From: Chloroflexota bacterium
GTDB taxonomy: Bacteria; Chloroflexota; Dormibacteria; CF-121
Assembly (NCBI GenBank): GCA_005880395.1
Contig: VBHQ01000059.1
Span: 1 to 32,878 of the forward strand
Direction of reading: 5' to 3'
Length of the DNA: 32,878 bases
In this document: positions 4,005-8,076 of the stretch, piece by piece
Position numbering within the stretch: position 1 is the stretch's first letter
Layout of the letters: each line of letters opens with the position of its first letter
The notes under the pieces: model-generated
The model's database searches: none
The model's input: the letters and a program-made list of their open reading frames with translations, nothing else
What the model was told of the DNA's origin: nothing
Program-made: the position numbers and the translations under genes

Positions 4005-5860
4005 TCCTGGTAAAGCGACCGCAGCCGAAGGCTTGCCTCCTCGTGGGCACGCGAGAGCTCGGCCACCTGCGCCGGGTCGTCGTATGTCTGATGGTCGGCG
4101 AGCCGCTCCTCGATCCGATGGATTTCGGCTTCGACGTCCTGGATCTGATCTTCGACCGATGCGCCCGCGGGCGTCGCAACCCGCAAAGGGCTGGCGGGCC
4201 GCGGCGATCGTGATCGTCCTTCATTCGCGGCCGCCGGCCGAGCGATGCGTTGGCGGCGTCGCTCCCAGTCGCTGTAGTTCCCGAGGTGCATGCTCACCGA
4301 GCCGTCCTCGACCACCCAGAGATGGGTCGAGACATCATCGATGAAGTAGCGGTCGTGAGAGACGAAGAGGATTGTTCCCTGGTAGTCATTGAGCGCGTCC
4401 TCGAGCATCTCCTGTGCCGGAATATCGAGATGGTTGGTGGGCTCATCGAGCATCAAGAGCCCGGCGTCGTCGAGCATCAGCTTAGCGAGCGCGACCCGGC
4501 TCTTTTCCCCGCCACTCAGTGACCGGATCATCTTGAAGGCGTCGTCGCCGCTGAAGAGAAGGCGGCCGAGAAATGTGCGCAGCGTTTCTTCGGGAAGACC
4601 AAAGACGTCCTGCAGCTCGGTGAGCACTGTCTTGTTCGGATCAAGGTCGGCGAGATGCTGATCGTAGTAGCGCATCGTGACCCGCGGCCCGGTCTTGACC
4701 CGTCCCTTCAGGGGCCGGAGCTCCCCGAGCAACGCTTTGAGCAGGCTGGTCTTTCCCGAGCCGTTCGGGCCGACGATCGCGATCCGCTCCCCGGCGCTGA
4801 CGGTAAAGGCAGGCACGTTGAGCCCCCACCCCTGCCCGCCGCCAGACGGAGAGGGAGACTTGTAGGCAAGGGTCAGGCCGTCGCTCTGATAGATGAGCTC
4901 GCTGGTCGCCGACGCGCGGAGGCGGATGCGAATCTGCTGATCCTCGGCCGGTGGGACGACTCGTTCCAGCCGGTCGAGCTTGGTCTGACGGCCGCGGGCT
5001 TCGCGCGCGCGCTGCCCGGCCTTGTAGCGACGGATGAACTCCTCCGTGCGGGCGATGTACTCTTGCTGCGCCTCGTATTCCTTCTGCCGCACGGAGCGGC
5101 GCTCCTGCCGCAGCCGGACGTATTGCCGGTAATTTCCCGGATACCATTCCCCGACGCCCGCCTGCAGCTCCAGGATGTCGTCGGCGACGCGCTCGAGGAA
5201 TCGCCGGTCGTGGGAGACGATCAGCATGCCGGCGTGCGAGACCCGGAGGAAGTCTTCCAGCCATTCGATCGCCTCCAGGTCGAGGTGATTGGTCGGCTCG
5301 TCGAGGAGGAGAAGGTCGGCCTCTTGCAAGAGGAGGCGGGCCAGCGCGAGCCGTCGCCGTTGTCCGCCACTCAGGGCGCTCGGCGCGAGCGCCTGGTCGG
5401 CCTCGGAGAGTCCGACGCCGTGGAGGACCTCGGCAACCCGGCTGTCATAGGCGTAGCCGTCGAGCCGCTCGTACTCGTGCTGCACGTCGCCGTACTCGTC
5501 GACCAGGCCCGGCAACGCCTCGCCACCGGTACGAGCCATGGCGTCCTCCAGCCCCTCCAGACGCTGGCGGAGTTCCATGATGTCGGAGCGGCTATGTAGC
5601 GCGTCGGCGTAGACACTCTCGTGCGGACCGGCTTCGAGCTCCTGCGGAAGGTAGGCCAGCCTGGATCGGGCCGCCAGCGCGACGGAGCCTCCCGCTGGCG
5701 GCACCTCGCCGGACAGGGCCTTGAGCAGGCTCGTTTTGCCGCTCCCGTTCGCGCCGACGATGCCCAGCCGCTGCCGTGGCTCGAGCTGGAAGGTCAGCTC
5801 GCGCAGGACGAGGTCGGCGCCGTACATCAGCGACAGCCGCTCGACTCGGACCAGGGGCAT
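3980..5860 (-). CDS. ABC-F family ATPase, ribosome-associated type
   Basis: Soluble protein of 626 aa with two ABC domains and no membrane segment. First domain: Walker A GANGSGKTS, signature LSGGQRRR, Walker B LLLLDEPTNHLD. The interdomain linker is charged and helical (EYIARTEEFIRRYKAGQRAR). Second domain: GPNGSGKTS, LSGGEKSR, LLMLDEPTNHLD. The C-terminal coiled coil (VEDQIQDVEAEIHRIEERL) is typical of the Uup/EttA/antibiotic-protection superfamily, which acts at the ribosomal E site; I cannot assign the subfamily. The start is placed at MPLVRVERLS because ABC-F proteins begin there; an in-frame upstream ATG at 5995 would add 45 atypical residues. Residues about 333-346 (SPSPSGGGQGWG) are encoded by a dispersed repeat lying inside the gene. 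Confidence 0.93.
   Translation of the reverse strand: MPLVRVERLSLMYGADLVLRELTFQLEPRQRLGIVGANGSGKTSLLKALSGEVPPAGGSVALAARSRLAYLPQELEAGPHESVYADALHSRSDIMELRQRLEGLEDAMARTGGEALPGLVDEYGDVQHEYERLDGYAYDSRVAEVLHGVGLSEADQALAPSALSGGQRRRLALARLLLQEADLLLLDEPTNHLDLEAIEWLEDFLRVSHAGMLIVSHDRRFLERVADDILELQAGVGEWYPGNYRQYVRLRQERRSVRQKEYEAQQEYIARTEEFIRRYKAGQRAREARGRQTKLDRLERVVPPAEDQQIRIRLRASATSELIYQSDGLTLAYKSPSPSGGGQGWGLNVPAFTVSAGERIAIVGPNGSGKTSLLKALLGELRPLKGRVKTGPRVTMRYYDQHLADLDPNKTVLTELQDVFGLPEETLRTFLGRLLFSGDDAFKMIRSLSGGEKSRVALAKLMLDDAGLLMLDEPTNHLDIPAQEMLEDALNDYQGTILFVSHDRYFIDDVSTHLWVVEDGSVSMHLGNYSDWERRRQRIARPAAANEGRSRSPRPASPLRVATPAGASVEDQIQDVEAEIHRIEERLADHQTYDDPAQVAELSRAHEEASLRLRSLYQEWEQAAGL
4820..4858. repeat. 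GC-rich palindromic dispersed repeat, copy B, inside ABC-F gene
   Basis: GAGCCCCCACCCC and CCAGA..GAGGGAGA match copy A in the same orientation. On the minus strand it is read through in frame as SPSPSGGGQGWG just before the second ABC domain (before VPAFTVSAGERIAIVG), at a surface position where family members normally have a short variable loop. Confidence 0.65.
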
Positions 5861-5868
5861 CACCGCCA

Positions 5869-5874
5869 AGTCTA
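5869..5874 (-). promoter_or_regulatory. Probable -10 box of the ABC-F gene, leaderless type
   Basis: TAGACT on the minus strand ends 8 nt before ATG 5860, so transcription would begin at or next to the start codon. There is no clear -35. Confidence 0.5.
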
Positions 5875-5994
5875 CGGCCGGGTTTTCGCAAACTCGGCGG
5901 AAAGATTGGCCGTCGATCCGGGAATAAAGCCGCGTCGATCGTGGTTTGCGACCGTATGCACGCGTTTCCAGCCGCATCAAATGAGGGTTCCTCA

Positions 5995-6375: not shown

Positions 6376-6441
6376 TCACATCCGGCGCGCGGGCCCGGCC
6401 GGGGCCAGTTCGTCCCAGGGCACGCGGGGATTTGCCGCGTG

Positions 6442-6447
6442 TACTAT
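6442..6447 (+). promoter_or_regulatory. Probable -10 box, leaderless, of the mgtC-like gene
   Basis: TACTAT ends 6 nt before GTG 6454. This supports that start rather than the in-frame GTG at 6439, which lies upstream of the box. Confidence 0.5.
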
Positions 6448-6453
6448 ACCGCC

Positions 6454-7134
6454 GTGCCGAACGCGCTCGACCTGATGCTGCGCCTGTTCGTGGCGCTGGT
6501 GCTGGGAGCGATCATCGGCCTCGAGCGGGAGCGCCAGGAACGGGCGGCCGGGTTGCGGACGGTGACGATGGTCTCGCTCGGCTCATGCCTGTTCACGGTG
6601 GCCGGCGCGTATGGCTTCCATCCAACGGATCCCTCGCGGGTGGCCGCCCAGATCGTCACCGGCATCGGTTTTCTGGGTGCTGGGACGATCTTTTTGCGCA
6701 AGGACCTGGTCCGCGGACTGACGACGGCGGCAACCATCTGGGCGACCGCCGCCGTGGGGATGGCCGCGGGGACCGCCCAGTACTTCGAGGCGTTCTTCAC
6801 CACGCTGCTCATCCTCGGCGTGCTGATGGTGCTCAAGCCGGTGGAGCGGCGATTCTTCAAGCGCCCGGGCGAGGCAAGCATCAACCTGGTCATGCCACGG
6901 GGAGAAGCCGAGCTGGAGCGGGTGCGGGCTGCGCTGGCCGGCATCGGCGCTTTCCCGGAGTCCGTGCGCGTCAACGAGCTGCCCGATGGGTTGGACCGGA
7001 TCGAGATGGAGATCGGCCTTCCGAACGACCGCACGACGTCCGACCTGCTCCGCCAGCTGCGCAGCGTCGAGGGCGCGCGCCAGATCCTCGTCTCTCGCGA
7101 CCTGATCGAGGACCGCGTTCGGGCCGGCAATTGA
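6454..7134 (+). CDS. MgtC/SapB family inner-membrane protein
   Basis: About 226 aa. N-terminal MgtC domain with four to five hydrophobic helices and family signatures LGAIIGLERERQERAAGLRT, TGIGFLGAGTI and TAATIWATAAVGMAAG. A cytoplasmic ACT-like C-terminal region follows (about residues 145-226). MgtC proteins are linked to growth at low magnesium and to control of the F-type ATPase in pathogens; the role in free-living bacteria is unclear. GTG 6454 matches the usual N-terminus and sits 6 nt after a TACTAT box. No Mg2+ riboswitch-like leader is possible if the gene is leaderless. Confidence 0.9.
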   Translation: MPNALDLMLRLFVALVLGAIIGLERERQERAAGLRTVTMVSLGSCLFTVAGAYGFHPTDPSRVAAQIVTGIGFLGAGTIFLRKDLVRGLTTAATIWATAAVGMAAGTAQYFEAFFTTLLILGVLMVLKPVERRFFKRPGEASINLVMPRGEAELERVRAALAGIGAFPESVRVNELPDGLDRIEMEIGLPNDRTTSDLLRQLRSVEGARQILVSRDLIEDRVRAGN

Positions 7135-7160
7135 TACCTGCGGGGATTCCCGCAAGCCCC

Positions 7161-7169
7161 TGATACAAT
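7161..7169 (+). promoter_or_regulatory. Extended -10 promoter of a tiny transcription unit
   Basis: TGATACAAT has the TGN-TANNNT extended -10 form with 5 of 6 consensus bases. There is no -35 at the proper distance, as is common for extended -10 promoters. Transcription would start near 7176. Confidence 0.6.
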
Positions 7170-7199
7170 GGCGCGCGTAAGGTCAGGGAGGTGGTGCCC

Positions 7200-7235
7200 A
7201 TGGCATTAGTTGACTTAAGTGAGAGCGGCGGGTAA
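7200..7235 (+). CDS. Candidate 11-residue small ORF within a short terminated transcript
   Basis: ATG 7200 follows GGGAGGTGGTGCCC, containing GGAGGTG, a full complement to the usual 16S rRNA tail, the strongest Shine-Dalgarno in the window. The ORF encodes MALVDLSESGG. It uses TTA twice, a codon otherwise rare in such GC-rich DNA. The stop codon (7233-7235) lies in the loop of the terminator hairpin. Promoter, ribosome site, ORF and terminator occupy about 100 bp, so this is either a real micropeptide gene, a translated regulatory RNA or an orphan attenuator. The only genes downstream are on the opposite strand. Confidence 0.4.
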   Translation: MALVDLSESGG

Positions 7236-7257
7236 CACCGCCGCTCTTATTTTTTTT
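7223..7257 (+). terminator. Strong intrinsic terminator
   Basis: GAGCGGCGG (7223-7231) pairs perfectly with CCGCCGCTC (7238-7246) around loop GTAACA, followed by TTATTTTTTTT. It is the best rho-independent terminator in the window. It serves the tiny unit and probably also the mgtC-like gene. A second hairpin (GGGCCGC/GCAGCCC, 7258-7276) follows directly. Confidence 0.9.
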
Positions 7258-7284: not shown

Positions 7285-8076
7285 TTAGGGGCTGCCTTTA
7301 AAGGCCGGAGGGCGTTTTTCTACGAAGGCTCGAATTGCCTCGCGCGCGTCCTCGGTCTTGCCGGCCAGCGTTTGAAGGTGCGCCTCGAGCTCCAGCGTTT
7401 GTTCCAGGTCCAGGGTTAACGAGCGCTCGAGCCCACGCTTGATCAGCGCGATCGTTTCTCGCGGTCCCTCGGCGAGGCGGCGGGCCTGCTCGAGCGCCGC
7501 TGGCATCACTTGCTCTGGCGGGACGACCGCGGCCACCAGTCCGAGCTGCTGGGCCTCTTCAACCGCGATCGGCTCGCCCGTCATCGCCAGCTCGGTCGCC
7601 TTGCTCAGGCCGAGCATCCGCGTCAGGAAGAAGAGGCTCCCGGCATCGGGGACAAGCCCGACGCGAACGAAGGCCACGATCAGCTGCGCGCCTGCCGCGG
7701 CGATCCGCAGATCGCATGCCAGAGCCAGGCTCAGCCCAGCGCCGGCAGCCGTCCCGTTGAGCGCCGCGATCACCGGCTTGGGGCAGCCGCGAATCGCACG
7801 GGTCAGTGGCGCGTAGTTCTGGCGCAGGTCATCACCGACGCGCGTATCGCCGGCGTCGAAGCGGGCGCTGACATCCTTCAAATCCGCGCCGGATGAGAAG
7901 GCGCGGCCGGCGCCGGTCAGGACCACGGCGCCGATGTCACGGTCCCGTGATGCGCCCTCGAACGCCTGCTTGAGCTCCCCGGTGGTCTGGCGATTCAGCG
8001 CATTGAGCGCTTCCGGACGGTCGATGGTCACGATGAGCGTCGAGCCGTCGCGAGCGGTGTTGACCGGTTCGCTCAT
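7285..8076 (-). CDS. Enoyl-CoA hydratase/isomerase family protein, isomerase-like
   Basis: Crotonase fold, 263 aa. It has the oxyanion-hole segments AFSSGADL and GTAAGAGLS and ends with the usual FVEKRPPAFKG. The two catalytic Glu of true hydratases are absent: the first position (GGGCELA in hydratases) reads GAGLSLA and the second (QPE) reads FVR. Instead it has GLVPDAGS with an Asp, as in PaaG-type isomerases and other 2,3-enoyl-CoA isomerases. So a double-bond isomerase, or ring-opening/closing role in phenylacetate-like CoA degradation, fits better than hydration; the substrate cannot be named. Its ATG overlaps the stop of the preceding hydratase by 4 nt (ATGA), showing translational coupling. 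Confidence 0.9.
   Translation of the reverse strand: MSEPVNTARDGSTLIVTIDRPEALNALNRQTTGELKQAFEGASRDRDIGAVVLTGAGRAFSSGADLKDVSARFDAGDTRVGDDLRQNYAPLTRAIRGCPKPVIAALNGTAAGAGLSLALACDLRIAAAGAQLIVAFVRVGLVPDAGSLFFLTRMLGLSKATELAMTGEPIAVEEAQQLGLVAAVVPPEQVMPAALEQARRLAEGPRETIALIKRGLERSLTLDLEQTLELEAHLQTLAGKTEDAREAIRAFVEKRPPAFKGSP

Follow-up and report, generated by a model that had tools for sequence, protein, structure and literature searches.

Coding small RNAs (sRNAs) are common, as a survey has documented (PMC5521070). Protein-coding and dual-function sRNAs, among them SR1 of Bacillus subtilis (PMC5521070; PMC8501984), combine a short stand-alone transcript with a Shine-Dalgarno (SD) sequence, a small ORF under selection and an intrinsic terminator. 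A further short RNA that unites a tiny ORF with a terminator is rnTrpL/peTrpL of Sinorhizobium meliloti, which provides a 14-amino-acid leader peptide and an attenuator sRNA that can both act in trans; rnTrpL is leaderless, beginning at its ATG, and derives from the attenuator before trpE (PMC7298713). Long SD-antiSD pairing that reaches near the start codon has been described for the extended SD sites of Staphylococcus aureus (PMC13009471). Type I toxin mRNAs encoding holin-like peptides are the remaining point of comparison.

We examined an element of this general kind in a 32,878-nucleotide stretch of DNA from a Chloroflexota bacterium, referred to here as the window. A first-pass annotation had described an extended -10 element, a GGAGGTG ribosome site, the ORF MALVDLSESGG and a hairpin with a T-run at 7161-7257, and had taken them for a self-contained micro-gene, either a micropeptide gene or a translated sRNA. 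Direct reading of the sequence bore out this anatomy, and the conservation on which the proposal had been staked beforehand was found, with promoter, ORF and hairpin kept in 18 of 18 relatives. By its sequence the element shares the features listed above for protein-coding and dual-function sRNAs, with a predicted transcript and a probably selected ORF, but its ORF has 11-13 codons, enters the terminator hairpin and has its stop codon in the loop, and it occurs in one Chloroflexota family only. Unlike rnTrpL, it starts from a promoter of its own, carries a long extended SD, is followed by no operon and flips its orientation. The long pairing resembles that of the S. aureus sites, but the setting is a high-GC soil Chloroflexota in which few window genes have an SD, and the ORF served has 11 codons. 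With type I toxin mRNAs the link is the ribosome binding site (RBS) string GGAGGTGGTGCCAATGACA, common to the element and to one Eubacteriales locus, whose ORF of 38 codons is hydrophobic whereas the peptide of the element is short and hydrophilic. Our literature search, which was far from exhaustive, found no described family with the sequence of the element or with a stand-alone mini-ORF that has its stop codon inside the loop of its terminator.

On comparative sequence evidence, the element is a real, selected and previously undescribed gene. We consider it likely to be a stand-alone translated sRNA, or micro-mRNA, specific to this one family. Few complete bacterial genes recognised from comparative evidence would be smaller, and the lineage is one known mostly via metagenome-assembled genomes (MAGs). 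An 11-codon ORF is invisible to ordinary gene callers, and sRNA surveys would label the element non-coding.

Anatomy and setting of the micro-gene

Table 1. Features of the micro-gene and its two neighbours (window coordinates).
Feature	Position	Strand	Basis
MgtC-family membrane protein gene, upstream neighbour	6439-7134	+	Pfam PF02308, E 1.9e-40
Extended -10 promoter element TGATACAAT (TGnTAnnnT)	7161-7169	+	Read directly from the sequence
Predicted transcript of ~80 nt	7176-7257	+	Start placed 7 nt past the -10 box, 3' end within the T-run; fold and conservation block 7160-7256
Motif conserved at the 5' terminus, CCTAAG(G); window copy CGTAAGG	7176-7182	+	Alignment of 18 sequences
Extended Shine-Dalgarno GGAGGTGGTGCC (GGAGGTG at 7187-7193)	7187-7198	+	Invariant in 18/18
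11-codon ORF MALVDLSESGG (ATG 7200-7202, stop TAA 7233-7235)	7200-7235	+	Intact in 18/18 relatives
Intrinsic terminator (stem 7217-7231/7238-7252, loop 7232-7237, T-run 7251-7257)	7217-7257	+	Terminator scan, fold, alignment
Enoyl-CoA hydratase/isomerase gene, convergent neighbour	7285-8076	-	Pfam PF00378, E 4.2e-68

From the -10 box to the T-run the unit measures about 97 bp (Table 1). The TGnTAnnnT motif is present in all 18 genomes, 15-17 nt 5' of the SD and in both orientations, including the genera in which the unit is inverted (see below); inspection by eye recognised no -35 box upstream of it. The predicted 82-nt RNA folds with -39.4 kcal/mol (z = -6.0 against shuffles), and its hairpin is the top terminator-like site within the surrounding 5 kb. 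At the putative 5' end, the first C and the TAAG of the terminal motif are invariant in the 18 sequences and the second C is present in 17. The stop codon of the ORF sits inside the terminator loop, and a scan for an SD, an ATG or GTG, a short ORF and a stop in a terminator loop picked out this site alone in the window, and 60 first-order Markov simulations yielded no match. The first-pass annotation had also pointed to the two TTA codons of the ORF as rare. Their rarity is real (0.12% of the codons in the main ORFs of the window), but they are weak as a signal, as the first of them varies within the genus, being replaced by AAA or AAC in 3 of the 15 congeners. AT-rich early codons, TTA included, would be explained simply by an open start region in a genome of 65% GC.

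The location of the element is constant: mgtC and an enoyl-CoA hydratase gene converge on it from either side. The mgtC gene adjoins it in 16 named relatives as well as in the window, and is found beside it on the same contig in all 18 genomes. No gene follows directly downstream on the same strand; a convergent gene stands there in both orientations. In most congeners the TGA stop codon of mgtC doubles as the start of the TGnTAnnnT box. The window's genome, alone among the 15 congeners, carries a 29-nt insertion (7132-7166) with TGATAC duplicated, one copy at each end, and TGCGGGGATTCCCGCA, a perfect inverted repeat, inside; through this duplication the roles of mgtC stop codon and -10 box have become separated.

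Distribution, conservation and inversion

The element is single-copy in all 18 genomes and all four genera of the family, as judged by BLASTN, a covariance model and an exact RBS pattern. BLASTN against 61 genomes (the window's own and relatives) found it in 15 of 15 genomes of the genus, with relatives 88-96% identical over the length of the element alone, and in three other genera of the family at 73-74% identity, with no match in other families. The covariance model and the RBS pattern gave no convincing copy in 92 other genomes of the class, where the 4 matches to the RBS pattern equalled the level of a reversed control. Weak covariance matches in other families or elsewhere in the genomes of the family (G097 L065, G099 L066, L059 and L063) proved on reading to be plain hairpins without SD and ORF. 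Two of these, L063 in the window's own genome (C50:8399-8480) and L059 (G003 C33), have stems that resemble that of the element (AGAGCGGCG...), with neither SD nor ORF attached. A phylum-wide covariance search beyond the family returned weak hairpin matches only (E 1e-5 to 1e-3, 33 bits or less; not read singly), and none was found in the viral contigs searched. Rfam gave nothing at the gathering threshold; the best weak match was mmgR/suhB (22.6 vs. 41 bits), and relaxed thresholds produced chance matches. No analogous micro-gene was seen at the mgtC loci scanned in another family (f3). The several copies at varying sites that mark a mobile or repeated element are absent, as each genome has one convincing copy, at the same locus.

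Within the genus, mean identity is 92% for the element, compared with 80% for mgtC coding DNA, 86% for the MgtC protein and 51% for four-fold sites of mgtC. The relatives' MAGs presumably come from one grassland soil project and belong to the Dormibacteria. Because the copies are strongly diverged, as the four-fold sites demonstrate, they are not re-assemblies of one organism. Column conservation is about 1.0 from 7187 to about 7206 and at 7217-7246, and falls to about 0.1 just 5' of 7160 and just 3' of 7257, where the flanks are unalignable. Since these limits coincide with the -10 box and the T-run, the conserved block is the very unit drawn in the first-pass annotation.

The strand of the element is that of mgtC in the window's genus (g1) and in g4, and the opposite one in g2 (L089) and g3 (L102). 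The inverted copies retain promoter, SD, frame and terminator, and the arrangement of the neighbours is the same, except that g2 is without the nearer hydratase (ECH) paralogue. In an MgtC tree with outgroups, g3 and next g2 branch off below g4+g1, which fits a single inversion, although the tree has some long branches and mixed support values. The ~100-bp intergenic unit was inverted in place, probably once. With its promoter motif kept in both orientations, the inverted unit points to independent transcription, and its flip between genera amounts to a clean natural test, one that shows an independent gene.

Reading frame, hairpin and rival explanations

The ATG, the frame and the stop are kept in all 18 sequences, with lengths of 11, 12 or 13 codons. 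The encoded peptides are of the MALVDLSESGG type in g1, MAKSTEISETGA in g4, MTETPQISESGA in g2 and MADSCSNGRESGA in g3. Relative to g1, the ORF is longer by 3 nt in g4, 3 nt in g2 and 6 nt in g3, all multiples of three. The hairpin tip reads GGG-TAA-CACC in g1 and GCC-TGA-GGGC elsewhere, so that an in-frame stop, TAA or TGA, occurs in the loop of two differently written tips (GGGTAACACC, GCCTGAGGGC). These length changes and the stop kept in two differently written loops argue that translation is probably selected. A rough estimate, based on few independent events, puts the survival of frame, openness and stop without selection at less than 1%. The sequence of the N-terminal half of the peptide is apparently not selected: codons 3-7 are rewritten between genera, and this half is not conserved. 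What is kept is an MA or MT start and an ...SE[S/T]G[G/A] end, the latter lying within the stem. The 11-bp stem core is paired in all 18 sequences, and two of its pairs show compensatory G-C to C-G changes, which turn Ser into Thr and Gly into Ala. Within the genus, 1 of 6 variable ORF columns is synonymous, about the 18% to be expected without constraint. Stem sites open to synonymous wobble change never vary, which suggests a sequence constraint on the putative RNA beyond coding.

This last observation, along with the stronger conservation of leader and stem than of peptide, is what would be expected of a non-coding regulatory sRNA, in which the G-rich leader GGGAGGUGGUGCC would be a seed for C-rich targets or for 16S rRNA and the ORF incidental. 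A G-rich single-stranded seed followed by a terminator is a common sRNA layout. However, the start codon, the frame and the in-loop stop have outlasted indels and a rewritten loop in every copy, and exact matches to the 12-nt complement of the leader are elsewhere in the 18 genomes about as frequent as those to a reversed control pattern. We consider such a non-coding sRNA rather unlikely. A toxin or signal peptide, either of type I toxin character or modulating MgtC in the way that MgtR of Salmonella acts on MgtC, has in its favor that the same extended SD sequence precedes a holin-like hydrophobic ORF on a Eubacteriales contig. Yet the peptides have 11-13 residues and are hydrophilic, with no hydrophobic stretch in MALVDLSESGG, MAKSTEISETGA or MTETPQISESGA; the element is single-copy, fixed in place and not mobile; and no antisense antitoxin gene was recognised, in what was not a systematic search. 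We give this explanation only a slight chance.

The inversion of the element speaks against both remaining explanations. The first-pass annotation had suggested an attenuator-like switch, in which a ribosome at the loop stop would open the terminator and read-through would yield antisense RNA over the convergent, isomerase-like gene. The stop is indeed in the terminator loop in all relatives and a convergent gene lies downstream. However, the antisense target would be the hydratase gene in g1 and g4 but mgtC in g2 and g3, which leaves neither of them as a conserved target; there is no conservation 3' of the T-run; and since the stretch from the ATG through the T-run spans only about 56 nt, polymerase is on kinetic grounds expected to terminate before 11 codons are translated. 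Such a switch appears very improbable. If the hairpin were nothing but an intrinsic terminator serving mgtC or the convergent gene, preceded by an ORF and SD that arose by chance, this would account for a strong terminator right behind mgtC in g1 and g4, but not for the conservation of -10 box, leader, SD, ATG and stop besides the hairpin, nor for its position behind the other gene in g2 and g3 with promoter and leader unchanged. The same stem arms recur at only 0-3 further places per genome and do not constitute a general terminator motif; we regard this as the least probable of the explanations considered. A conserved attenuator antisense to the hydratase gene is ruled out by the inversion in g2 and g3, and so is a terminator that merely serves mgtC.

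Leader pairing and proposed mode of action

The 12-nt SD core GGAGGTGGTGCC is invariant in all 18 genomes. It pairs with the tail of 16S rRNA (GGAUCACCUCC; 3' end GGATCACCTCCTTT as read in two family members) over about 12 bp, with one G-U pair and one bulged G, at -19.7 kcal/mol; an ordinary GGAGG site forms a duplex of about -11 kcal/mol. The first-pass annotation had called this the strongest ribosome site. Strong it is, but it ranks second in the window by pairing energy when all positions are counted, genic or not, and is thus notable by its length and conservation, not its energy. The invariance of the leader is better explained by extended ribosome capture than by an unknown protein site. 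Most other genes of the window had been thought leaderless, a claim that our data check weakly: upstream of the first six start candidates of the 25 long ORFs, an SD-like motif was found in 5 and a TANNNT box in 8, consistent with frequent leaderless initiation. A pairing of the leader with the ORF (UAAG with CUUA) was considered and rejected, since it fits the 15 genomes of the genus but fails in the other genera.

For the translated sRNA that we favor, RNA polymerase would start at the extended -10 promoter, which has no -35 box, and produce an RNA of about 80 nt that its own terminator brings to an end. Being complementary to almost the full 16S rRNA tail, the leader would then capture ribosomes very strongly. 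An initiating ribosome is expected to cover about 7180-7214 and the hairpin begins at 7217, just past its edge, so that by sequence geometry and known footprints the initiation complex and the terminator can coexist. The 11-13 codons would be translated through the left arm of the hairpin, ending at the stop in the loop. The functional product may be the short peptide, in which frame, start and end have been preserved, or else the RNA with its load of ribosomes. Our best reading is that the element is valued for ribosome loading, for the short ...SE[S/T]G[G/A] tail, or for both. The purer alternative, that capture through the 16S complement and translation to the in-hairpin stop are the conserved function and the peptide sequence is not, seems unlikely to us; such an RNA might titrate initiation-competent 30S subunits, for example, or report the state of translation or termination. 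The element makes testable whether selection can preserve ribosome loading and an open frame even as half of the peptide drifts.

Finally, the extended RBS GGAGGTGGTGCCAATGACA recurs, identical, at positions 5800-5980 (L093) of the Eubacteriales contig JAUNCG010000019, in front of a 38-amino-acid hydrophobic holin-like ORF (MTAYEIVMVIIGIIGLLVSHG...) that is followed by a terminator-like hairpin and is probably a type I toxin-like gene. That both sites pair with 16S rRNA is the best explanation of this identity, which fits convergence.
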